64,000 bases of DNA. It comes from an uncultured Pseudomonadales bacterium. GTDB taxonomy: Bacteria; Pseudomonadota; Gammaproteobacteria; Pseudomonadales; Pseudohongiellaceae. The notes under the pieces were generated by a model. That model had not been told where the DNA came from. It ran no database searches and was given only the letters and a program-made list of their open reading frames with translations. This document shows, one piece after another, positions 41,148 to 53,450 of the stretch. The DNA lies in NCBI GenBank assembly GCA_943789485.1, contig CALSUH010000007.1:62001-126000 (forward strand). Direction: 5' to 3'. Numbering within the stretch: position 1 is the first letter of the stretch; each line of letters opens with the position of its first letter. The position numbers were made by a program, and so were the translations under genes.

Positions 41148-42188
41148 TTATTTAGAGAGTGAATATTTTCGCAAAGCCATGCCTGCTGTGAGTGAGCCAT
41201 AGATATTTCCATCTCTGTCGGCAACCACACCCTCCTGACTCCCGCTCGCATCGGGGTCCTGAAGAAACAACATCACACGGCCATCTCTCACATTCCCGAC
41301 GCGAATACCTTCTTCAAAACCGGGATTAGATTGTGCTGTGTTTGAAGATGAGGAGTCGGCGACATACAGCAGGTCATTGTCATCGATGAACATGCCGCTG
41401 GGTCGGCCAAATTGCGTCCACTCGTCGAGAAAGTTGCCGGACTGATCGAAAATAAGTACTCGATCGTTACCGCGATCGCCAACAAATAACCGGCCCGCGG
41501 AATCCATAGCCAATGCGTGAGGCGTATGAAACTGATTCGGGCCCTCGCCAAATGACCCCCAAGTCATGAGATAGTCGCCATGGGAGTCAAACTTCACGAT
41601 GCGAGCGTTTGATCTAGGGCCATGCCCGTCACCGACAAAGATGTCGCCACCCGGCGCAACGACTACTGCCGATGGCATATTGAATGTGTCTGGGCCGTCG
41701 CCTGGGATACCGGGTTTGCCCAAAGTCATGAGCAATTCGCCTTCGGGACTGAACTTGAAGACCTGATGACCCTTGGCTTCGCTAACAGTATCGATGTCAC
41801 GTGAGCCAACATCATCTGTTACCCAAACATTTCCACCTCTATCTACAGTCAAGCCATGAGGACGCTGAAACAGGTCTTCACCGAAACTGAGAAGATGATT
41901 GCCCTGCCGGTCGAATTTCATAATTGGGGCAAGATCTGACCCTCGGCAATTTTCGGCACCGCAGCGATCAAAGACCCAGAAAGACGAACCATCCGGGTGA
42001 ATTCCCAAGCCCGAGGTGGCACCGATTGACCTGCCCGGTGGCAGTTTGAAGAAAGCCTCGTCGATGCTGTAGTCATTGCTGGGCGTGAAACGCGCATCCG
42101 TGACCTGGGATAATGCAGCAACAGAAAAAAACAGCGAAAAAATTACCGCTACTCTCTGATGGAATTTAATATGGTTCAGTTTTGGCAT
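41148..42188 (-). CDS. Secreted NHL propeller, peptidyl-hydroxyglycine amidating lyase (PAL)-like
   Basis: 346 residues from ATG 42188, preferred because MPKLNHIKFHQRVAVIFSLF starts a clean signal peptide; an in-frame ATG at 42236 would overlap the upstream CapA gene. The NHL blades align with animal PAL: H111 in FQRPHGLTVDRGGNVWVTDD, HQVFKF, H224 in FHTPHALAMD and R243 in NDRVLIFD. Where rat PAL has Tyr654 (SDGY) this protein has GDGH, and where it has His786 (MPHD) this has SQEG, giving Glu319. It therefore has the PAL fold and two of three zinc-type His ligands but an altered site. Probable periplasmic lyase or hydrolase of unknown substrate; a paralogue is at 48632. Confidence 0.82.
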   Translation of the reverse strand: MPKLNHIKFHQRVAVIFSLFFSVAALSQVTDARFTPSNDYSIDEAFFKLPPGRSIGATSGLGIHPDGSSFWVFDRCGAENCRGSDLAPIMKFDRQGNHLLSFGEDLFQRPHGLTVDRGGNVWVTDDVGSRDIDTVSEAKGHQVFKFSPEGELLMTLGKPGIPGDGPDTFNMPSAVVVAPGGDIFVGDGHGPRSNARIVKFDSHGDYLMTWGSFGEGPNQFHTPHALAMDSAGRLFVGDRGNDRVLIFDQSGNFLDEWTQFGRPSGMFIDDNDLLYVADSSSSNTAQSNPGFEEGIRVGNVRDGRVMLFLQDPDASGSQEGVVADRDGNIYGSLTAGMALRKYSLSK

Positions 42189-42225
42189 AATTGAATCGCT
42201 CGTTTTACGATGATAAAAGGCTATA

Positions 42226-43695
42226 TTATTCCACATGTATTACACCTACACTCCCTTCGACTTCGATGGTAGTTCCCCATTGATCCGACAAGCGCGCAAC
42301 ACGTTCCAGAATTAATTGGGCATGACTCTCTTTGGCCATCCGCGGAATACCAAGCTTTGAGTCAGGGCCGTTTATCCCCAACTCTATCGGGTAAAGTCGC
42401 ACCTCTCGTAGAGCACCGTCTTCATAATGGCTAACTGCAACCACGCTTTCCAAAGACTGGGTGGATCCGCCAAAATTTCGGGAGAACTGCTGCAATCTTC
42501 TTTGTGGGTCTGCATCGGCAGCACCGACAACCAGCTCCAATTCCCACTGTGCTTCTCGAAAAAACTCACCCAGACCATAGAAAATCGGTTTGCCTTCGTA
42601 GATTTCAATGCCGCGTAGTGTTTGCACTCCCGTGCCAACAAAGGCATCGGCTCCGGCATCGATAGCCTGATGCGCCAGATCCACATAGAACTCGGGCGGG
42701 CGCGTGCTCAAATGCTGAAACTCCACGACCGACTCACTCTGATGGATGTGAGCGGCGGCAGTAACGAAATCTCCAAGCTGGCGGGCATTGCGAATATTCC
42801 TGAGCATGCGATCCACGTCATTGCCATTCAAGGTATACGCAACTGTGCCTGGAATTTCATCACCCCGAATTACTCGATATCTGGGGTCATTGCGTCCGGA
42901 ACTCGAGGCAGGAATGCTTATACCCGTATCGGGCGAAGCGTTGGCTACGGGGCGCGGATTGTCATAGTTGTCTCGGTATTCCAGGAATCCCTGACGAACT
43001 TGCTGCAGGGCATCGTACTGCTGCTGGGATACTAAAATAGTCTCTCTATAATTGAGCATGTTGAGACCGGGTCTTCCTCCCAGATTTCCATTGCGAGATG
43101 TTGCCGCAAGTCGATAGTGTTCTGGAAAGATGGGGGCATGAGCGCCGACTAACGCGGCGCGCCCCTTTGCCAACTCAAGATAAGCCGGTGCGGCTGCTTC
43201 TTGCAGGTTTCTACCGCTGCCCGCATGAATAATGCCTGCTTCGTCCAACAAAGCGTTCGTTGAAAACATGCCCTCGAATTCGGAATCAAGAAGATGGTTC
43301 TGGGCACGATTGACCATGTCGAAGCCCATCAATTTGAGATCGGCTGCGACCTCATGACTGCCTACAAAGCCATTGAGGGGGCCATCGAATTCTCGCAAAT
43401 TCACCAACTCACCCTCCATGTTTGCCACTGCAAGATCGGCATTTCTTATCAAGTCAAAAACTGCCTGCACTTTGGGGTCGACGAGCTGAGATGCGGGGCG
43501 GCGTATCATCAAGTCACCAACACTTGCCAGAACGAATTCTCCCGGCATGGTCATTGCCCGATCTCTATCGGCAAGCGGCGGAAAATCCGTCTGGGCTGAT
43601 AGATTGATTGAAAGGCCACTCGATACTGCGAATACAAGTGTAATTAAACGCAAGGCGACTCGGCCTGCCCGACTCTGTAATTTACTAGCTTTCAT
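42226..43695 (-). CDS. CapA family protein (metallophosphatase-like)
   Basis: 489 residues with a signal peptide (ALRLITLVFAVSSGLSINLSAQ). The CapA signature appears as FVLASVGDLMIRRP near the start of the domain, ADLAVANMEGELVN, GFDMVNRAQNHLLDSEFEGM, and the C-terminal VDLAHQAIDAGADAFVGTGVQTLRGIEIYEGKPIFYGLGEFF. This fold is a calcineurin-like metallophosphatase; in PgsA/CapA proteins it serves poly-gamma-glutamate capsule export. The HIHQSES segment takes the place of the usual H-W-G-x-E motif, so metal binding may differ. No other capsule genes are nearby. It precedes the PAL-like gene with overlap at the stop and may be co-transcribed. Confidence 0.88.
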   Translation of the reverse strand: MKASKLQSRAGRVALRLITLVFAVSSGLSINLSAQTDFPPLADRDRAMTMPGEFVLASVGDLMIRRPASQLVDPKVQAVFDLIRNADLAVANMEGELVNLREFDGPLNGFVGSHEVAADLKLMGFDMVNRAQNHLLDSEFEGMFSTNALLDEAGIIHAGSGRNLQEAAAPAYLELAKGRAALVGAHAPIFPEHYRLAATSRNGNLGGRPGLNMLNYRETILVSQQQYDALQQVRQGFLEYRDNYDNPRPVANASPDTGISIPASSSGRNDPRYRVIRGDEIPGTVAYTLNGNDVDRMLRNIRNARQLGDFVTAAAHIHQSESVVEFQHLSTRPPEFYVDLAHQAIDAGADAFVGTGVQTLRGIEIYEGKPIFYGLGEFFREAQWELELVVGAADADPQRRLQQFSRNFGGSTQSLESVVAVSHYEDGALREVRLYPIELGINGPDSKLGIPRMAKESHAQLILERVARLSDQWGTTIEVEGSVGVIHVE

Positions 43696-43746
43696 AACTG
43701 CTCCCAGGGTGCCTTTTTAGCTATCTGTTATTATCTTTATCTGGAC

Positions 43747-44024
43747 TTATCTCTGCCTAGTGGCAGTAGCGCAAGCAGAAAAAAATTCGCTACGAACTTC
43801 CACTCCTTTTCTGCTAGCCACGCCTGCTCTGTACAGGACACATTGGTATGTCTCAGCTCGAGGATATCTCCAGGCGCAATACCCGGGTTTTCAAACAGCG
43901 CTCGAATCGTCGCTAAATCAGGATTGAAGCGAAGATCAAGCTACAGAACTTGATGAGCCCAAGACTCAGAGCAAAGAACAATCGACAGCGCAAGCAAAGG
44001 CATTAGCTTAAAAAAGTGTTTCAT
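43747..44024 (-). pseudogene. Internally deleted copy of the LRR protein gene
   Basis: From ATG 44024 (AAAGGAAT site upstream) the frame reads MKHFFKLMPLLALSIVLCSE then SWAHQVL and TAG, continuing LDLRFNPDLATIRALFENPG, IAPGDILELRHTNVSCTEQA. After a one-base loss the end is VEVRSEFFSACATATRQR and TAA at 43747. This is the start and end of the LRR gene at 52386 (MKHLTINLSL...LDLRFNPEL..IQALFENPGIG...) with all the repeats missing. The junction CTGTAGCTTGATCTT corresponds to recombination between CTGCAGCC and ATGCAGCTC of the living gene, i.e. across TGCAGC. Confidence 0.85.
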
Positions 44025-44129
44025 AGCGAGATTCCTTTTTTAGACATAGGCATGACCCTAGTCAACGTTAATTCTTGTCTAGTTTTCATCTTATAGTCAT
44101 TCAATGCTATTGCGGCAATCTCAAAAAAA

Positions 44130-44936
44130 TTACTCCTTCATTCTTGAAATCACATCTATTCTGGTCTCGGGATTAGCGTCATCACCCGGGTCATGAAAGA
44201 AGCCCGCTGCTACGCTAACCGAAACTGCTGGACTGGTCTCAGCGAGACAGGCAATGACATGGTTATCCGGGTCATCATCTGCGAGGATAAGTGGGTGCAC
44301 GGAATCCCCGTCACTAAGAAGAACCGATATAGCTGTTCGCTGGGCCTCGGCAAGAGCGGCACCCTGGGCTCCGGTAACCCCGCCTTCCCAAGTTAGCTGA
44401 ACTGCTTGTGCGGTCTCGATTGGGCATTCCCCTTCAAGCCCTTCAGTATCGGAAGCGAAGCGCTCGGCAAGCACGAGGCTGGGCCCAGCTGAGAGGAGCG
44501 TCACCTTTTCACTTCTCAAGCCCACCAGTGAATTTCCATCGACATCTTCGAGTTGTTCCACAATTTCAACACTGAGCGGCAGTGCATCGTCGACACTAAA
44601 GGCCCCAATAAGAAGCACAGTACGCTTCTCGAGCGCCTCTGTCGCAGGTCGCAATGTGGCACACAGTGGAGTAATAATTTCACCAGAGGTAGTTTCAACT
44701 GCAAAGGCGATTGCAGAAACTGATGCACTATTTATCTGCACAGAAAAGGTAACGGGCATTCCATCCTGGCCACCAGCAGGCGGCATTCCACACAATCGAG
44801 TTGCAAGTGGCGGCAAGGGATCAAGCCCGTGATACGCAGATAGAATGCGCATCTGTTTCTCACTTTCTGTTATTTTTTCCTGCGCGTCAGCAGCAACAAA
44901 AAAGCAGAATAAGGATAGTGTTGTGAATAATTTCAT
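44130..44936 (-). CDS. Hypothetical exported protein next to PQQ dehydrogenase
   Basis: 268 residues with a short signal peptide (LFTTLSLFCFFVAADAQ). The mature protein has four cysteines spaced through the chain (RLCGMPP, PLCATLR, GECPIET, IACLAET), probably two disulfides, and a C-terminal VSVSVAAGFFHDP. Two internal VTFSVQIN / VSVSVAAG stretches suggest an immunoglobulin-like beta sandwich, but I do not recognise a family. It is 54 bases downstream of the PQQ dehydrogenase on the same strand and probably shares its transcript, so it may assist or bind that enzyme. Confidence 0.65.
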   Translation of the reverse strand: MKLFTTLSLFCFFVAADAQEKITESEKQMRILSAYHGLDPLPPLATRLCGMPPAGGQDGMPVTFSVQINSASVSAIAFAVETTSGEIITPLCATLRPATEALEKRTVLLIGAFSVDDALPLSVEIVEQLEDVDGNSLVGLRSEKVTLLSAGPSLVLAERFASDTEGLEGECPIETAQAVQLTWEGGVTGAQGAALAEAQRTAISVLLSDGDSVHPLILADDDPDNHVIACLAETSPAVSVSVAAGFFHDPGDDANPETRIDVISRMKE

Positions 44937-44990
44937 AAGTTATCTCGTTACAGTGTGCGGCTGTGAATGTGCACTCAAAAAACTAGTGAA

Positions 44991-46961
44991 TCAAGGCCCG
45001 TAACTGTAAACCCTCAACCGTCCCGGCACATCTGAACCTGCGATCGCCACAACCAGATACTGGACGCCGTCGATAGCGTAAGTCATTGGGCTTCCGGTCT
45101 GTTGCGCTGGCATGGATAGGCTGCCTAGTTGCTTGCCGGTAAGTTTGTCATAGGCTCGCAGCAAGGCTTCTTGCTCGCCATCAGCATTTGTATAACTGCC
45201 ACCGTCGCCGGCTATCACAAGTGTTTTGGTAACCAGGACACCTACACGCCCCGCTTGTCCGGTAGGTGGAATATCGAGCCCGGCCAGTGCAGGATGATTG
45301 CGAATAGAATCCGGCGTCTCACCATGCACAACATCCCAAAGCTTTTCACCCTCGTTCAAGTCCAATGCCACGATCTGTCCATAAGGTGGTTTGATTAATG
45401 GCAAACCCTCCACACTCAATCGCGGCGCAGTTCTCAATTGCAGATTAATATAGTCCATGTCGGAGCGCTCGGGACGACTGCTCATAGACATTCGGCCCAC
45501 ATCTGACTTGCTAAAAATATACATGAAGCCGGTTTCAGGATCGACTGCGCCTCCTGGCCAGTTGGCTCCTCCGGTTTGCGAGGGCATGAACAGCGTGCCG
45601 AACGTACCGTCGTCGGCCTCCGCCAGAGACGGAGGCATATAGATCTCGCCATAACGGTACTGAGAGAGTATCTCTCGTGCCTTGGTTTTCAACTGCGGCG
45701 TAAAATCAATTAATTCATCGTCGCTGAGCCCTTGGCGAGCGAACGGTGGAGGTTTTACAGGAATTGGCTGAGTAGGAGAAAGTCGTTCACCGGGAATATC
45801 GGATGGAGGCACCGGTACTTCCTCGATCTCAAACAGAGGCTCTCCAGTCGCCCGGTCGAACACGAAGGTGTAACCCTGTTTTACTGTTTGCACCAGAGCA
45901 GCGCTGGTTTGCCCATTAATAGTTAGATTAAGGAGCATTGGCGCAGAGGGAATATCCCAATCCCACACGTCATGATGTGTAGTCTGAAAATGCCATTTTC
46001 TCTCACCGCTTGTGAGATCGAGTGCAACTATACTGTTGGTGAATAGATTGTCTCCGTGCCGATGACCGCCATAAGAATCCCCGGTAGCAGTTTCGGTAGG
46101 CAGGTACACCGTATTTAGCGCAGCATCGATTGTCATCTGTGCCCAAGAGCCGCCATAGCCCGTATAGGACCAGGAGTTATTCAGCCAGGTATCATTGCCG
46201 TACTCACCGGCCTCGGGAATAGCATGAAAGATCCAGAGTCGATTGCCAGTGCGCGCGTCGTAGCCGCGAACATGGCCTTTTGGCTTTTCCCGGCTAGTTG
46301 GCATCCTGCCCGCACGGAACGCCGAACCGATAACGATAACGCCATTGGCAACGATAGGTGCGGCATGGAGTCCTACTTCACCTGTTATGAGGTTCAAGTC
46401 CTGATCGAACTCCTGTTTTAAATCTACAATGCCATCGATTCCAAAGTTCTCGATGCGTTCTCCGCTCGCCGCATCCAGCGCAATCATCTGGTAACCGGGT
46501 GTTACATAAATGATACGTCCCCTGTCGCTGCCATCATCCCACCATGCCAGTCCGCGACCTGACAGCCGGCGGGGAGCATTCGACGCACGCTCTCCTTCAT
46601 CGAGACGGGACATCCAGAGAATCTCTCCGCTCGAAGCATCCAAAGCAACAACAGCTCGCCTGTTTCCAGCAGTGGTATAGATAGTTCGATTGACCATTAA
46701 GGGTGTTGATTGAAAATTAAACTCTGGACTAGGGCCAAAGCTACTCGTGTCGAATTCCCACGCAACCTCTAACTGGTTAAAGTTTTCACCAGTGATAGTG
46801 TCCAGCGGAGAATAACGGGTGCTGGCCAAGTCGCCGCCATAAGTACGCCATTCCTGATCTTGGGCTTGAGACTGTTTGAGTGTGGTTATTGATAAGAAAA
46901 TGATTGAGAAAGCAGTTAGCTGCATACGCTTTTTTTGGAAGGTGCTGCGGGTGATTAGCAT
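44991..46961 (-). CDS. PQQ-dependent dehydrogenase (quinoprotein)
   Basis: 656 residues. Start at 46961 (MLITRSTFQKKRMQLTAF) or the internal ATG at codon 13; either gives a signal peptide ending SQAQDQEW. The eight-bladed propeller starts YGGDLASTRYSPLDTITGEN and contains tryptophan-docking motifs such as ALDASSGEILW, ALDLTSGERKWHFQ, FDRATGEPLF and ALDLNEGEKLWDV. RGLAWWDDGSDRGRIIYVTPG is typical of the soluble domain of glucose/quinate-type quinoproteins. It lacks the vicinal Cys-Cys pair of methanol dehydrogenases and a heme-c domain. It oxidises an alcohol or sugar in the periplasm; the neighbouring cytochrome c protein may accept or relay electrons. Confidence 0.92.
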   Translation of the reverse strand: MLITRSTFQKKRMQLTAFSIIFLSITTLKQSQAQDQEWRTYGGDLASTRYSPLDTITGENFNQLEVAWEFDTSSFGPSPEFNFQSTPLMVNRTIYTTAGNRRAVVALDASSGEILWMSRLDEGERASNAPRRLSGRGLAWWDDGSDRGRIIYVTPGYQMIALDAASGERIENFGIDGIVDLKQEFDQDLNLITGEVGLHAAPIVANGVIVIGSAFRAGRMPTSREKPKGHVRGYDARTGNRLWIFHAIPEAGEYGNDTWLNNSWSYTGYGGSWAQMTIDAALNTVYLPTETATGDSYGGHRHGDNLFTNSIVALDLTSGERKWHFQTTHHDVWDWDIPSAPMLLNLTINGQTSAALVQTVKQGYTFVFDRATGEPLFEIEEVPVPPSDIPGERLSPTQPIPVKPPPFARQGLSDDELIDFTPQLKTKAREILSQYRYGEIYMPPSLAEADDGTFGTLFMPSQTGGANWPGGAVDPETGFMYIFSKSDVGRMSMSSRPERSDMDYINLQLRTAPRLSVEGLPLIKPPYGQIVALDLNEGEKLWDVVHGETPDSIRNHPALAGLDIPPTGQAGRVGVLVTKTLVIAGDGGSYTNADGEQEALLRAYDKLTGKQLGSLSMPAQQTGSPMTYAIDGVQYLVVAIAGSDVPGRLRVYSYGP

Positions 46962-46984
46962 GAATTACTCTCTCAATATTGCTG

Positions 46985-47019
46985 AAAAAAGTTCCGAGCA
47001 GCTTGCAGCAGCTCGGAAC
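46985..47019 (-). terminator. Strong intrinsic terminator after the cytochrome c/copper protein gene
   Basis: On the minus strand GTTCCGAGC (complement of 47011-47019) pairs with GCTCGGAAC (complement of 46991-46999), extended inward by a GC pair after one A-A mismatch, followed at once by TTTTTT (complement of 46985-46990). It separates the cytochrome/monooxygenase gene from the PQQ dehydrogenase, so these two are likely transcribed separately. Confidence 0.85.
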
Positions 47020-47111
47020 TTAACGCGATTGTTCAACGATTTCTTCGCGTGTTTGCGCCTCTGCCCGGCGCTATTAGCCCTCTTTGACGAGTGACCAAGA
47101 TTGCGTGCTAT

Positions 47112-48449
47112 TCAGTCACTGCCTGCGAGAGAACGTTGCTGCTTCACTTCTCTCTCGGCAACCATTTTTTCATAGCCTTCATCGTCTAGGTGTGTAACAG
47201 CAATCCAGGCGTGAGTCATTTCATCGCCGGTGCGGCTGCCGCCCACAACCCACATATCAGGGTCCGGGTTGTTGGGGTTGTCCGCTGTGTTGTCATACCA
47301 CTGCTTCAGCACCAGAACCGCACCTGCTGGCAGCAGCGGTGCTACATCGGGGTCGTAGATATGATTGTGATGCCAAGTAGCACTCCATTTGGAGATTTGG
47401 CTGACCGGCACAGTACGTCCGGTTTCTGGATAGAAAATCTCCAGCGAGGCGGCATTCATGCGCAGGTGACCATGGGGCTGGAAACTATCGATACGCACCG
47501 GATGATCAAAGGTGTGGAAGCCCTGAGTCATTTGATAGCCGTTGGGTGGAATCACAAGATCCCCCTGTTGCTCTATCCGGTAGTTCGTCAGGTCCTGCCG
47601 ATAAACGCCTTCCTGCTCACCGAATTCTTCGTCATGGAACCACAGGCCGATTTCAACCACGTTGTCCTCGATCATCTCGCCCTTGGCAGTTGCACCGACG
47701 CCACCGGGGAAATTATGGATATTCCATTGTATTTGAGCCCCGGAAGGCAGGGTCCTACAGACATCGCCTGGCACTTTCTCACCCCATTTGCCCATGGCGT
47801 ATTCGGTGAGCATGCCATTTCGGCGAAGCTCACCGTATTCATCTTCGATAAAGATGATGGAATTTGCGTGATGGACTACCGCCGCTGCATCTCCGCGAGG
47901 CTTCACCTGAACTGCCTTAATGCAGCGCTCTGCAACTGCCGCTGTTACTCTGGGGTCAACAATCTCTCTTATCCACAGGTCATTACCATTAGCAGGGACA
48001 TCATAAGAGGATGAAGGCACGATCAGGTCCGGTGCGCCAAGTTCGGCTTCGAAGTTCCATTGGCTTGGAGTTTTAACCTGAGCAACAGGTGGGTTCACGT
48101 CAAGATCACCTCGAGGGGAGCCAGCATTCACCCAGGCCACAATAGTATCGATATCATCTTGCTGCATGCGCCAGTCGCCGACTAGATTCTGAATACCAAT
48201 GCCGTGATCATAGGCGTAGGGCGGCATTTCACGGTTAGCTACCTTGAGTTGGATAAGCGGAGCCCAAGGGCGCACCTGTTCAAAATTAGTGAGCTGCATG
48301 GGGCCAATGCCGCCTTCTTGGTGACATACCACGCAATTCTCATTGATGATTTGGGCGACATGCTCGTTGTAGGTGAACGGCTCTTGAGCGAATACGCCCT
48401 GAACCCCAAGCAGTGCAGCAACCGCGACGAGTAATTTGCTAAGTTTCAT
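47112..48449 (-). CDS. Cytochrome c fused to PHM-like dicopper monooxygenase domain
   Basis: 445 residues with a signal peptide (VAVAALLGVQGVFAQ). Residues 24-110 are a c-type heme domain with C39-V-V-C42-H43 and a likely Met75 axial ligand (NREMPPY). The remainder matches the type II ascorbate-dependent copper monooxygenase fold: H193-H194 (VVHHANSI) and H245 (WNIHNFPGG) suit the CuH site, and H326-G-H328 (FQPHGHLRM) with M411 (TGDEMTHAW) suit the CuM site. In peptidylglycine monooxygenase these six ligands hydroxylate the alpha carbon of a C-terminal glycine. Here the heme domain may deliver electrons in place of ascorbate. PAL-like genes on both sides suggest a paired hydroxylase/lyase. 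Substrate unknown. Confidence 0.82.
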   Translation of the reverse strand: MKLSKLLVAVAALLGVQGVFAQEPFTYNEHVAQIINENCVVCHQEGGIGPMQLTNFEQVRPWAPLIQLKVANREMPPYAYDHGIGIQNLVGDWRMQQDDIDTIVAWVNAGSPRGDLDVNPPVAQVKTPSQWNFEAELGAPDLIVPSSSYDVPANGNDLWIREIVDPRVTAAVAERCIKAVQVKPRGDAAAVVHHANSIIFIEDEYGELRRNGMLTEYAMGKWGEKVPGDVCRTLPSGAQIQWNIHNFPGGVGATAKGEMIEDNVVEIGLWFHDEEFGEQEGVYRQDLTNYRIEQQGDLVIPPNGYQMTQGFHTFDHPVRIDSFQPHGHLRMNAASLEIFYPETGRTVPVSQISKWSATWHHNHIYDPDVAPLLPAGAVLVLKQWYDNTADNPNNPDPDMWVVGGSRTGDEMTHAWIAVTHLDDEGYEKMVAEREVKQQRSLAGSD

Positions 48450-48631
48450 ATGCTTTACCTCTCCAATGTGCTTAATTCGCTGGACTTAGTTTGCAGCTCA
48501 ATAGCATAACCCATTTTCAACTAGAATCCGCAAGACAAGTCCGGGACATGTCGGCACTATTTTGTCCAAAATACTGGATAATTCCCAGTTTCTAAGATAT
48601 TTTTTCGATTCCATAACTACGATGCTCACTC
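48450..48631. promoter_or_regulatory. Divergent promoter region with GACATGTC palindrome
   Basis: These 180 bases must hold promoters for the cytochrome/monooxygenase gene (minus) and the PAL-like gene (plus). An 8-bp palindrome GACATGTC sits at 48545-48552 in the sequence CCGGGACATGTCGGCAC, close to the centre, and could be an operator. I could not assign -35/-10 boxes with confidence. The divergent arrangement suggests co-regulation of the two genes. Confidence 0.3.
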
Positions 48632-49690
48632 ATGCAAACAACAAAAATTCTTGCTCTACTGTCGGTATCACTATTCATTATAGATTCAGGGGTTCACAGC
48701 CGCGCTCAATCCCCTTCAACGTCAGGAATAGTTCACGGCGTGCGCAACGATCTGCCTCAGCCCTATGAGACACTACGCAGTTGGGGCGAATTACCAGAAG
48801 GGTCGAAATGGGCTGCTGTCACTGCCGTGGAACCGTCTCCCGATGGGCAGTTCATCTATGTCATACACCGCTGCATTGACAACTCTTGTGAGGGTCGCAG
48901 CGAAGATCCAATTCTCAAATATGACTATGACGGCAATTTGCTGGATTCTTTTGGTGCAGGGCTGTTTGTTTTCCCCCATGGCGCTTCGGTGGATTATGAA
49001 GGCAATCTGTGGGTCACCGATGCTCGCAGTAACGGTAGCATTGGACATCAGGTTTTCAAATTCAGTTCCGAGGGTAATATTTTGATGACAATCGGGCAAC
49101 AAGGGCAAGGCGGCTCAACACCGGGACTACTGTTCAACCCTAATGACGTTGTTGTTGACCCTGACGACGGCGACATCTTTATAGCGGAAAGCCACCGAGG
49201 CGGGAGAAATAACCGAATTGTGCATTATTCGTCTGAGGGAAGGTTCATTAAACAATGGGGAAGCAAAGGATCAGGGCAAGGAGAGTTCAGCGAACCCCAT
49301 AGCATAGCAATGGATTCCCGGGGACGATTGTTTGTTGGCGATAGAGACAACAATCGCATTCAGATTTTTAGTCAGGATGGGGATTTTATCGACGAATGGA
49401 GACAGTTCGGCCGCCCCAGCGGTATTTTTATTACTCCAGATGACCAAATTTATGTAGCCGACTCGGAATCCGGACCCGACACAGGTGCAGGTGAATTAAC
49501 GGGAATAAGAAAGGGTATCCGCATCGGTTCTGCCGTTGACGGCACAGTCACTGCATTCATTGAAGATTTGGAACCGCTGCGGGACGATCACTCAGGCGCC
49601 GAAGGTGTTGGCGTGGATGCTAATGGAAATGTTTACGGTGCGGTGGTCAGACGACAGATGTTAGAGCGTCATGTGCTGCGATCAAATTAA
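48632..49690 (+). CDS. Secreted NHL propeller, PAL-like (second copy)
   Basis: 352 residues; signal peptide ILALLSVSLFIIDSGVHSRA. It is a clear paralogue of the protein at 41148: FVFPHGASVDYEGNLWVTDA, GHQVFKFSSEGNILMTIG, FSEPHSIAMDSRGRLFVGDR and NNRIQIFSQDG align blade by blade. The two PAL-type histidines (FPHG, EPHS) are kept. The Tyr654 equivalent reads ESHRGG, and the third His position reads GAEGVGV, so the same Tyr-to-His and His-to-Glu changes occur as in the first copy. It is divergent to the heme/copper monooxygenase gene, making a hydroxylase/lyase pair plausible. Exact chemistry unproven. Confidence 0.83.
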   Translation: MQTTKILALLSVSLFIIDSGVHSRAQSPSTSGIVHGVRNDLPQPYETLRSWGELPEGSKWAAVTAVEPSPDGQFIYVIHRCIDNSCEGRSEDPILKYDYDGNLLDSFGAGLFVFPHGASVDYEGNLWVTDARSNGSIGHQVFKFSSEGNILMTIGQQGQGGSTPGLLFNPNDVVVDPDDGDIFIAESHRGGRNNRIVHYSSEGRFIKQWGSKGSGQGEFSEPHSIAMDSRGRLFVGDRDNNRIQIFSQDGDFIDEWRQFGRPSGIFITPDDQIYVADSESGPDTGAGELTGIRKGIRIGSAVDGTVTAFIEDLEPLRDDHSGAEGVGVDANGNVYGAVVRRQMLERHVLRSN

Positions 49691-49811
49691 GATCTAGTGC
49701 CTGCTACCGAATCCTCATCCACAGCACGATCTAATTCTGGTTTCGAAGAAGGTACTCGAATTAGGAATGCCGGAGATGATCGAACTACTCTGCTTATTTT
49801 ATTCCCAATTA
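49691..49811 (+). pseudogene. Fragment of a third PAL-like gene
   Basis: Directly after the stop of the PAL-like gene a frame reads DLVPATESSSTARSNSGFEE and GTRIRNAGDDRTTLLIL. This aligns with LLYVADSSSSNTAQSNPGFEE and GIRVGNVRDGRVMLFLQ of the copy at 41148, not with the copy it follows. It is therefore debris of a third family member, probably left by recombination or deletion of a tandem array. Confidence 0.7.
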
Positions 49812-49902: not shown

Positions 49903-50898
49903 ATGAAAACAAAAAAAGCACTAACTCTACTGCTGTACTCATTATCTGTCTTGTTCTCAGCTGCGCAGGCAGCAGAACCGGCCAAGGTCATTGCCACCCG
50001 TCTTGGTGATGGCCCTATCATCACGCCTGAAATGGATGCTCGAATGGGCGGCAATATTCAGGGGCCTTCGTTGATTAAGGTACCTGATTGGGTAGAGAAT
50101 CCGCTTGGCAACTACTACCTGTATTTTGCTGATCACCGCGGCACTTACATGCGTATGGCCTACGCCGATGAAGTTACTGGTCCGTGGACCGTCTATTCAC
50201 CAGGCTCACTAAGACTCGAAAACTCCTTCTTTCCCACTACCTGCCCACCCTGCTCACTTGCACCAGGGCGGACCGCGCCGCTGTATGCACATATCGCCTC
50301 ACCCGACGTGCACGTGCGTGAAGATCTTCAACAAATAGTGATGTACTACCATGGACGAGGTGAAGGCAGACAATTCACACGTGCAGCTGTGTCTAAAGAC
50401 GGTATTCATTTCGAAGGCAGAGAAGACGAGCTAGGCCCACACTACTTTCGCGTGATTGAACACGATGATTACTTCTACGCCATGAGCATGCCTGGCTTCC
50501 TGCATCGCTCGCCCGATGGCTTATCTAAATTCGAAGCAGGCCCTCGGTTTTTCAATGCCGACATGCGGCACTCGGCCCTATTGATCCGTGACAATCGCCT
50601 CTATGTATTTTACTCCCAGGCTGGAGAACAACCGGAACGAATTCTACTTTCCACCATTGAATTAACAGATAATTGGCTGGAGTGGACGGCGACTGATCCA
50701 GTAGAAGTGCTTCGCCCCGAATTTGGCTACGAGGGCGCTGACCTGCCAAACGAACTATCCAGAAGAGGTTATATCGATGTGCGAGTGCACCAGCTTCGTG
50801 ACCCGGCCATCTATCAAGAAGGTGATAAAAGCTATTTGCTTTATTCAGTTGCGGGTGAGAGCGGCATCGCCATCAGTGAAATTAGTTTCACTGATTAA
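49903..50898 (+). CDS. Exported propeller-type protein (glycosyl hydrolase 43/32-like fold)
   Basis: 331 residues with a signal peptide (LLYSLSVLFSAAQA). Repeated blades such as GNYYLYFADHRGTYMRMAYAD, VMYYHGRGEGRQFTRAAVSKDG, LYVFYSQAGEQPERILLST and DPAIYQEGDKSYLLYSVAGE look like the five-bladed propeller of GH43/GH32-type proteins, with SPDVHVRED and a central HSALLIRD strand. The catalytic acids of those families are not convincingly present, so it may be a sugar-binding or non-catalytic propeller. One Cys pair, TTCPPCS, resembles a redox-type CxxC. It begins after the PAL-like fragment and could belong to the same accessory set. Confidence 0.7.
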   Translation: MKTKKALTLLLYSLSVLFSAAQAAEPAKVIATRLGDGPIITPEMDARMGGNIQGPSLIKVPDWVENPLGNYYLYFADHRGTYMRMAYADEVTGPWTVYSPGSLRLENSFFPTTCPPCSLAPGRTAPLYAHIASPDVHVREDLQQIVMYYHGRGEGRQFTRAAVSKDGIHFEGREDELGPHYFRVIEHDDYFYAMSMPGFLHRSPDGLSKFEAGPRFFNADMRHSALLIRDNRLYVFYSQAGEQPERILLSTIELTDNWLEWTATDPVEVLRPEFGYEGADLPNELSRRGYIDVRVHQLRDPAIYQEGDKSYLLYSVAGESGIAISEISFTD

Positions 50899-50981: not shown

Positions 50982-52268
50982 ATGAACTCTCGCCACTACC
51001 TTTCGACTCTGATTACGCTGATGCTGCTGTGGTTTCCCTTCATAAATACTCACGCACAAACCACGCTATCACCCAGCGATCATTGTCGGAATTTTTCGGC
51101 GGATGCAATTGTAAGCTTTGCTGATCAAGACCTGGCCGAAGTCGTAAACGATGCGCTGGGATTGGATTCGCAGGCTCCACTGACCTGTGGACAAGCAGCC
51201 GAGTTAGAGCAACTGATTGTGGGGACTACGATTGAGCGCGTAGTTTATGGCGGCACCTTACGACCCTCGCCAGAAAAACCTTTCGAGAGTCTGGAGGGCA
51301 TCCAAAACCTTACAGGTTTAACCAGGCTCAACCTAATTAATCGCCTCATTACTGACATTAGCCCAATTCGCACTTTGTCTAATCTCGTTAATTTGAACTT
51401 ACACACTAACTGGTTCAGCGACCTTAGCCCCGTGAGTGAATTGACCAATCTCGAACAGCTTGTCGTTAGTGAAAACCCAATCTTCGATATTAGCCCACTG
51501 GCGGGACTCACCAAACTACGAAGGCTCCATGTACATGGTCTGTACCCCCGTCAACTTCAGCATTATCTCGATATGGATGACGGACGCGATCCCAACGTAG
51601 TGTTCAATGGCATTACTGACATTAGCCCGCTTGCAGGGCTTACCGAAATGCGCCTGTTGCGCATTCACCTCAATGCCATATCCGATATTGGTCCTCTTGC
51701 TCATCTCACCAAACTCACTCATCTGCGAATTTATGAAAGTGAAATTAAAGACATCAGTCCTCTCGCGAACCTAAATGAACTGACCTTGTTGTGGGCCAAT
51801 AACAACCAGATAGAAGACATAAGTGCACTAAGTGGTAAGCCCGCCTTGGTGCAACTTAGCCTGAATGACAACGCCATTGCCGACGTTAGCGCCCTTCAGG
51901 ACTTGATCAACTTGAGGTATCTGTTTCTCAGCAATAACAACATTGATGACATAGCGCCTCTAAGAAGACTCCACGCACTGCAAGTCCTGCGTCTCGAGAA
52001 TAATGACATCACCGATGTGAGCGCCCTCGCCGGACTCAATCGGCTTGAAGAATTGAGCCTGGCTCAGAACTGGTCCCTGTATAATGTTCAACCACTGCTG
52101 CTGAATGAGGGTATTGGTGAGGGCGACGAAATCGACCTCCGCTTCACCTATGTGCCCTGCTCCGACATGAACGCTTTTGCCAACTTGGGAGTCAATTTGC
52201 TCAGAGTCACCTCGATAAATGGCTCAGCCTGCGATGGCCGAAGACTAGAAGACGATCAAAATTTCTAA
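50982..52268 (+). CDS. Secreted leucine-rich repeat protein (internalin-type)
   Basis: 428 residues with a signal peptide (TLITLMLLWFPFINTHAQ) and a short N-terminal cap (LSPSDHCRNFSADAIVSFAD..LTCGQAAELEQL) holding two cysteines. Then come about 11 repeats of roughly 22 residues, each of the form I.DISPLA.LT.L..L..., e.g. GITDISPLAGLTEMRLLRIH and NNIDDIAPLRRLHALQVLRL. A C-terminal cap (IGEGDEIDLRFTYVPCSDMNAF) contains a further Cys pair. Such proteins bind other proteins or glycans at the cell surface; there is no visible anchor. A paralogue follows at 52386. Confidence 0.9.
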   Translation: MNSRHYLSTLITLMLLWFPFINTHAQTTLSPSDHCRNFSADAIVSFADQDLAEVVNDALGLDSQAPLTCGQAAELEQLIVGTTIERVVYGGTLRPSPEKPFESLEGIQNLTGLTRLNLINRLITDISPIRTLSNLVNLNLHTNWFSDLSPVSELTNLEQLVVSENPIFDISPLAGLTKLRRLHVHGLYPRQLQHYLDMDDGRDPNVVFNGITDISPLAGLTEMRLLRIHLNAISDIGPLAHLTKLTHLRIYESEIKDISPLANLNELTLLWANNNQIEDISALSGKPALVQLSLNDNAIADVSALQDLINLRYLFLSNNNIDDIAPLRRLHALQVLRLENNDITDVSALAGLNRLEELSLAQNWSLYNVQPLLLNEGIGEGDEIDLRFTYVPCSDMNAFANLGVNLLRVTSINGSACDGRRLEDDQNF

Positions 52269-52385: not shown

Positions 52386-53450
52386 ATGAAGCACCTTACT
52401 ATAAACTTGTCTTTAACCGCGCTGTCGCTTGTACTTTGCTCTGGGGCTTGGGCTCAACAAATTCTGCAGCCATCTGACAACTGCCTAGATCATAACGCTT
52501 CTGACATAGTGACCTTTGCAGACGCCGTGCTGGAAAATGAGGTGCGTGAAGCTTTGTCACTATCACCACAAAACACGCTTAGCTGCAGTCAAGCCGCGCA
52601 GCTAAAAAATCTGGATGCTTCTGGCGTAGGTGCGAGACGATCAGTTTCAGGATCTCCAGAATGGAGAGACCCTGAACACCTGTTTCATGACCTCTCCGGA
52701 ATACAGAACCTTACAGGTCTAACCGACCTCGCTCTCCGAAACCGCGGCCTCTCTGACATTAGTCCACTGGCCGGGCTTACGGAATTGATAAACCTAAACC
52801 TACACACCAATTGGATTTCTGACATCAGCCCTTTGCGTGACATGACTAAGTTGATCAGATTGCGTATCGCCGAGAATCCCTTGACCGATATCAGCGCCCT
52901 GGGCGAACTTACTGAACTGAGAGTGCTTCGAATGCATCGTCACGGCAACTTCATCGGCGGACAGAACCCCAGGACGCATATGGGAGCGACAGGATTGCTA
53001 TTTACTAATGCCGTTACCGACATTAGTCCATTAGCAAAACTTACCAAGCTGGTGGACCTTAATATTCATACTCAGGATATAAGCGACCTGACGCCGTTGC
53101 GTGGCCTGACATCTCTGATCGAACTGCGACTAGCGGCTAACTCGTTCACTGATCTCAGCCCACTACGCGGACTCAATACCTTGCAGTTCCTCGAGCTTAC
53201 CGGCAACAACATAAGCGATATAACTCCACTTAGTGGACTTACAAACCTGATGCAGCTCGATCTTCGATTCAATCCCGAGCTAAGCAATATACAGGCACTA
53301 TTTGAAAATCCAGGCATTGGCGCTGGAGATATTGTCGAGCTAAGACATACCAACGTGTCATGCACAGATCAGGCGCTACTGGCAGAAAAAGGAGTGGAGG
53401 TGCGCACCGAACTATTCTCTTCTTGCGCCACAGCCACCAGACAACGATAA
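52386..53450 (+). CDS. Secreted leucine-rich repeat protein (paralogue)
   Basis: 354 residues. Signal peptide MKHLTINLSLTALSLVLCSG, cap with QPSDNCLDHNASDIVTFAD and LSCSQAAQLKNL, then about eight 22-residue repeats (RGLSDISPLAGLTELINLNL, NNISDITPLSGLTNLMQLDL), and a C-terminal cap NPGIGAGDIVELRHTNVSCT. It shares cap and repeat layout with the gene at 50982 but has fewer repeats, consistent with repeat gain or loss. Its 5' and 3' ends match the fossil at 43747, and its 5' end matches the fossil at 53459. AAGGAACATTGAA precedes the ATG. Confidence 0.9.
   Translation: MKHLTINLSLTALSLVLCSGAWAQQILQPSDNCLDHNASDIVTFADAVLENEVREALSLSPQNTLSCSQAAQLKNLDASGVGARRSVSGSPEWRDPEHLFHDLSGIQNLTGLTDLALRNRGLSDISPLAGLTELINLNLHTNWISDISPLRDMTKLIRLRIAENPLTDISALGELTELRVLRMHRHGNFIGGQNPRTHMGATGLLFTNAVTDISPLAKLTKLVDLNIHTQDISDLTPLRGLTSLIELRLAANSFTDLSPLRGLNTLQFLELTGNNISDITPLSGLTNLMQLDLRFNPELSNIQALFENPGIGAGDIVELRHTNVSCTDQALLAEKGVEVRTELFSSCATATRQR

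Follow-up and report, generated by a model that had tools for sequence, protein, structure and literature searches.

A predicted heme-dicopper monooxygenase and PAL-class propellers encoded side by side in Pseudohongiellaceae

Results

A PHM-like gene lies between two PAL-class propeller genes

We analysed a 64,000-nucleotide stretch of DNA (hereafter the window; G000:C7:62001-126000) from an uncultured Pseudohongiellaceae bacterium, whose assembly comprises 3.67 Mb in 32 contigs and is 84% complete. PHM and PAL are familiar mainly from animals, where each accounts for one half of peptide amidation; the window encodes proteins resembling both. On the reverse strand lies the gene of a predicted heme-c/dicopper monooxygenase (47112..48449, 445 aa), assigned to the fold of PHM and dopamine beta-hydroxylase (DBH) from its predicted structure, its ligands and its relatives. 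It is divergent from the forward-strand gene of PAL-B, a six-bladed PAL-class propeller (48632..49690, 352 aa), from which it is separated by the intergenic stretch 48450..48631, and it lies 4.9 kb from that of a second PAL-class propeller, PAL-A (reverse strand, 41148..42236, 362 aa, with Met17, base 42188, as the likely true start). Both propellers are recognised by Pfam as NHL propellers. This arrangement bears out a preliminary description of the locus, which had proposed a PHM-like protein with one PAL-like protein divergent from it and another about 5 kb away. The block is a real feature, bringing known folds together in an unusual combination.

The monooxygenase has the predicted fold and the copper ligands of PHM

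The monooxygenase begins with a signal-like stretch, as judged by eye, followed by a CxxCH motif at residues 39-43. As the preliminary description had claimed, it carries all six copper ligands (H193, H194, H245, H326, H328 and M411), in the order HH, H, HxH, M that we take to be that of PHM. H193, H194 and H245 are present in 206 of the 206 rows of an alignment that includes three cuts of the window protein, and all six ligands in 165. CxxCH is found in 203 rows (the other three have gaps) and M75, a candidate distal heme ligand, in 204; Pfam cytochrome c models score below their cut-offs. The relatives come from uncultured Gammaproteobacteria, several Pseudohongiella and one OM182.

AlphaFold2 models of the monooxygenase and of PAL-B were used for fold comparison, which had been put forward as a check and gave matches to PHM/DBH and to PAL, respectively. 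The monooxygenase is predicted to adopt the two-domain PHM fold. Rows of PNGase F also occur among its fold matches because PHM and PNGase F are assigned to a common Pfam clan and have a double jelly-roll fold in common (PMC8812541). At the sequence level, the window protein reached no copper monooxygenase model in Pfam (Cu2_monooxygen or Cu2_monoox_C) and had no match in the PDB by phmmer, where a profile built from 53 relatives likewise found no PHM. PF03712 matches seven of these 53 relatives at E<=0.01, one of them seen above the cut-off (27.1 versus 23). Given the lack of a Pfam or PDB sequence match, the link with PHM rests on fold, ligands and relatives.

A subfamily of PHM-like proteins (40 aligned rows; for example L034:8705-10405, L060:436-2133 and L068:3152-4918) has Arg-x-Asn or similar residues in place of the His-x-His copper pair, while the other three histidines are kept and M411 is present in 38 of the 40 rows. 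Its members often lie beside intact copies, on the opposite strand.

The propellers resemble PAL but have a rearranged metal site

PAL-B is predicted to be a six-bladed PAL-type propeller, and two programs place animal PAL as its top fold match. PAL aligns to it over a single long stretch and is the top-ranked match of its residues 55-225 (E 1.3e-23). Five residues (R80, H116, H188, H223 and R238) are invariant in 19/19 aligned members, and position 188 varies together with position 324, a glutamate (E324) in PAL-B. R80 and R238 are presumably the equivalents of the PAL active-site residues R533 and R706. Of the PAL zinc ligands H585, H690 and H786, the first two are kept and the third is replaced by Glu in both window propellers, which also have His at the position of the active-site Y654; the numbering of H585, Y654, H690 and H786 agrees with the chain positions in 3fvz plus a constant 491. 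As read from these alignments, the metal site of the window class is rearranged (His at PAL 654, Glu at 786), and its substrate or cleavage chemistry therefore probably differs from that of animal PAL. With two PAL residues missing, the window propellers cannot be taken to perform the PAL reaction on hydroxyglycine.

A separate propeller class in the same genomes, encoded beside PHM genes of a redoxin type, has all six PAL residues (RHYHRH). PAL-B itself finds 23 NHL matches in its own genome, 12 of them at E<=1e-30.

Conservation of the block in relatives

In nine loci (L043-L051) the monooxygenase is 88-94% identical to that of the window, and at least one propeller is kept in eight of them. 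In L043, L044, L045 and L050 the monooxygenase has PAL-B as its divergent neighbour; L043, L046 (where it is cut), L047, L049 and L051 have PAL-A downstream, and in L049 both propellers are downstream. Neither propeller is found in L048, a short contig. The divergent pair of monooxygenase and PAL-B persists in the more distant L078, at 70% and 72% identity.

Co-occurrence and co-localisation in related genomes

We searched 25 genomes of the family, 145 of the order and 397 of the phylum, with E-value cut-offs that were set only after the lists had been inspected. Among the matches listed, PHM-like genes (E<=1e-20) occur in 15 of the 25 family genomes, and a PAL-class gene at E<=1e-50 accompanies them in 15/15 cases, against 1/10 of the PHM-negative genomes. 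Orthologues of the RHYHRH propeller follow the same division: each of the 15 PHM-positive genomes has a best E no higher than 1e-135 and none of the other ten does, five of these holding weaker relatives (E 1e-50 to 1e-97). In 13 of the 15 genomes such an orthologue is found no more than 6.1 kb away from a PHM-like gene. Its residues were read in eight of these 13 genomes and gave RHYHRH in each, except that the first position is missing in G007. The PHM-positive genomes represent five genera and the PHM-negative ones three; since the genomes are related, these are not independent events.

The two families also lie closer together than expected, and the lack of co-occurrence in related genomes that the preliminary description had named as grounds for refutation was not seen. 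The search for PAL-class genes in the family sample gave 85 matches, of which 18 weaker ones were dropped and 67 retained (E 7.6e-45 or better); leaving aside one in G001, a genome lacking PHM-like genes, gave a set of 66 in the 15 PHM-positive genomes. Fourteen of these have a PHM-like gene at a distance of 10 kb or less, where 4.24 are expected (4 of 100,000 simulations reached as many), and eight have one within 3 kb, where 1.9 are expected (41 of 100,000), under a chance model that is based on the fraction of each genome close enough to PHM-like genes and is optimistic in ignoring contig ends and relatedness. The PHM-PAL pairing within the family is thus supported, although not proven.

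The searches of the two wider samples scored few candidates per genome. In the order sample, PAL-class genes (E<=1e-50) were found in eight genomes, two of them outside the family (G045 and G080) and neither with a PHM-like match; PHM-like genes (E<=1e-20) were found in 13, seven of them outside the family and none with a PAL-class gene. The phylum sample gave two genomes for each family of proteins, the only one common to both being the window's own.

Multiple PHM-like copies and their neighbours

Among the matches listed for the window's own genome, 28 are PHM-like at E<=1e-3; of the 20 that reach E<=1e-20, two are fragments interrupted by stops. Some PHM-like genes stand in same-strand sets with PAL-class genes. 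In L019 the set comprises a TonB receptor, PHM, members of two neighbour families that we call c1 and c6, a PAL-class gene and a member of the PQQ cluster; in L021, a di-heme-type cytochrome c, the PQQ cluster, PHM, c1 and the PAL class; and in L020, c6, an RHYHRH propeller, PHM and c1. In another genus, L121 contains a PHM accompanied by c1, an intervening PAL-class gene on the opposite strand, and a second PHM adjoining a PQQ-cluster gene. The c1 family (for example L019:11106-12029 and L021:8486-9472) gave no Pfam match in the one member scanned, and no c1 gene lies beside the window monooxygenase.

Some further arrangements were seen. At G000:C4:1325-4248 (L017), PHM-like copies stand in tandem, pieces with in-frame stops beside an intact copy. 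The c6 family (about 310-370 aa; for example L019:12133-13206 and L018:13743-14777), in which one scanned member had no Pfam match, has 14 members in the own-genome loci and the window, several within PHM/PAL sets. A syntenic cluster across genera (L022, L118-L120, L123-L125) joins a redoxin-type PHM, a HupE/UreJ-type protein and an RHYHRH propeller, in most cases with two DUF6644 proteins and a second PAL-class propeller. Around distant PHM genes in other genomes (for example in L058, L066 and L075), common neighbours are an MFS transporter (33 loci), a cupin (31), a protein of about 400 aa of unknown family (25) and a GMC oxidoreductase (19).

Other genes of the block

On the strand of the monooxygenase, and in order after it, come a PQQ dehydrogenase, a four-Cys protein, a leucine-rich-repeat remnant, a CapA-like protein and PAL-A; PAL-B is followed on the opposite strand by a weakly GH43-like protein and two leucine-rich-repeat proteins. 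The PQQ-type dehydrogenase (44991..46961, reverse strand, 656 aa; Pfam PQQ, 595.5 bits) starts 150 bases after the monooxygenase. The four-Cys protein (44130..44936, reverse strand) has a signal-like start, again as judged by eye, and no Pfam match; its cysteines 49, 92, 171 and 230 all follow the signal region and are kept in 7/7 members of its cluster, the window's included. Both had been assigned to the block beforehand, and both are there.

A third PAL-like fragment, also proposed at the outset, is rejected, as the only PAL-class matches of the window are the two propellers. The candidates in between are a CapA/PGA_cap-type protein (42226..43695, reverse strand), recognised by Pfam and matching the model of the lasso-peptide epimerase MslH at 175 bits (model cut-off 700), and, where the supposed fragment would lie, a broken leucine-rich-repeat gene remnant (43701..44035, reverse strand; blastx E 6.4e-23 to leucine-rich-repeat proteins). 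On the forward strand, the protein adjoining PAL-B (49903..50898) has a sub-threshold GH43 match and belongs to a cluster that recurs in 11 loci; the two leucine-rich-repeat proteins occupy 50982-52268 and 52386-53450. They belong, as does the broken remnant, to a cluster of 17 members spread over 10 loci.

Discussion

A protein predicted to fold like PHM/DBH, in which six copper ligands are conserved and a c-type heme motif is fused on, is encoded in the window next to propellers of the PAL fold, and related genomes show the association again. We tentatively propose that these proteins form a periplasmic module for two-step oxidative cleavage, hydroxylating and then cleaving a substrate, with electrons entering via the fused heme. 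Our confidence in it stays a little below even, held down by a negative test of PQQ linkage and by the five of 13 propellers whose pattern was unread. In PHM, the copper pair hydroxylates an activated C-H bond using O2 and two electrons. Here, the copper sites would hydroxylate a C-H bond adjacent to N or O; the two electrons would arrive via the fused heme instead of ascorbate, with the adjacent PQQ dehydrogenase or other cytochromes of the periplasm as their possible origin; and the metal-binding propeller would speed the collapse of the hydroxylated product, a hemiaminal or hemiacetal, the net outcome being dealkylation. The fused heme motif in itself suggests a reductant other than ascorbate. 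The hydroxylase/lyase system of the preliminary description is thereby retained as to both folds and their association and loses the strict PAL identity of its lyase, in which two residues are missing; nothing points to N-substituted glycines in particular, the substrates it had envisaged.

A number of observations weigh against such a module. The PQQ dehydrogenases show no significant linkage, with 3/23 of those matching at E<=1e-50 (a cut-off that leaves out the PQQ-cluster gene of L021) within 5 kb of PHM-like genes, where 1.33 are expected (tail 0.14). Joint occurrence of the two families was seen nowhere outside the family in the order and phylum samples. Of the 66 retrieved loci in which the monooxygenase is more distant, two (L078 and L095) hold a strong PAL-class gene and seven any NHL match, counting within the retrieved stretch. 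The neglect of relatedness in the co-localisation model counts here too, as do the loss of H786 and Y654 from the window propellers, the 52 of 66 PAL-class genes that lie more than 10 kb from any PHM-like gene, and the fact that the gene found most often beside PHM-like genes is c1, in 51 of 57 cases no more than 600 bp away. The last two, along with the Glu at the H786 position and the PAL-class genes that G045 and G080 hold in the absence of a PHM-like match, would also fit a stand-alone periplasmic hydroxylase partnered by c1, the propellers being hydrolases or lactonases that act on other molecules and became neighbours through shared catabolic islands. This is a serious contender, if on the doubtful side; it sits uneasily with the above-chance co-localisation, the same-strand sets containing both families and the coupled presence of the two inside the family.

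That the propellers are non-catalytic NHL domains for binding or scaffolding appears quite improbable, as PAL matches over a single long stretch and is top-ranked for residues 55-225 of PAL-B, and the five invariant residues and the covariation of positions 188 and 324 are what an active site would display. We regard true peptide amidation, or another peptide modification in which the CapA/MslH-like neighbour acts on the same peptide, as very improbable. The joint presence of PHM and PAL folds and the 175-bit MslH match speak for it, but that match is far under its cut-off, no precursor peptide gene was noticed (though no search for one was made), the window propeller class lacks the strict PAL residues, and the roughly 20 diverged PHM-like copies, with TonB receptors and dehydrogenases nearby, are a better fit to catabolism.

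The PHM-PAL pairing hints at a little-studied breakdown route for organic molecules outside the inner membrane. An extended version of the oxidative-cleavage module, which we consider unlikely, would be a self-powered periplasmic pathway in this marine family, running from TonB import through heme-dicopper hydroxylation and cleavage by a PAL-type lyase with a rearranged metal site to a PQQ-derived return of electrons. If it were true, the PQQ dehydrogenase would oxidise a product and two electrons would go back through cytochrome c to the monooxygenase; with some 20 diverged copies, a single cell could attack many of the substituted compounds in dissolved organic matter; and the PHM-PAL pair of animals would represent one branch of a chemistry that is older and bacterial. 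If the copies are catabolic, they would represent an oxygenase family in marine carbon turnover as yet unassigned. Simple proteins for testing electron delivery to coupled copper sites and how the lyase evolved would also come from a bacterial set that combines the two folds with a fused heme and a switched PAL metal site.

Our searches turned up no report of a PHM gene paired with a PAL gene in bacteria, which is weak evidence of absence as most subscription journals were outside the search. Papers on amidation in Chlamydomonas and animals (PMC5461114, PMC6919629), in the portions of text searched for bacteria or prokaryotes, contained nothing on bacterial enzymes. A survey of bloom Gammaproteobacteria terms the gene annotations of the window's family and of a sister family challenging, and lists many oxygenase annotations in that sister family, HTCC2089 (PMC8371827); the word copper was not found in its main text.

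Compared with PHM and dopamine beta-hydroxylase, the window monooxygenase differs in its fused N-terminal c-type heme motif, its 11-16% identity, its lack of a Pfam match and its many copies per genome. The window propellers share with PAL, the best fold match of PAL-B, the positions of R533, H585, H690 and R706, and differ in having His for Y654 and Glu for H786. The bacterial methylguanidine system MgdH/MgdL (PMC12508155) likewise couples a hydroxylation to a dedicated lyase that cleaves a hemiaminal; its hydroxylase, however, is an Fe(II)/2-oxoglutarate enzyme, and its authors state that PAL and the MgdL lyase have no sequence homology to each other. The expansion of oxygenase paralogues in SAR202 (PMC5395668) is a similar case from marine bacteria, in which the many paralogues are proposed to act on resistant dissolved organic matter; those are flavin enzymes, whereas the ones described here are predicted heme-dicopper enzymes with signal-like starts.

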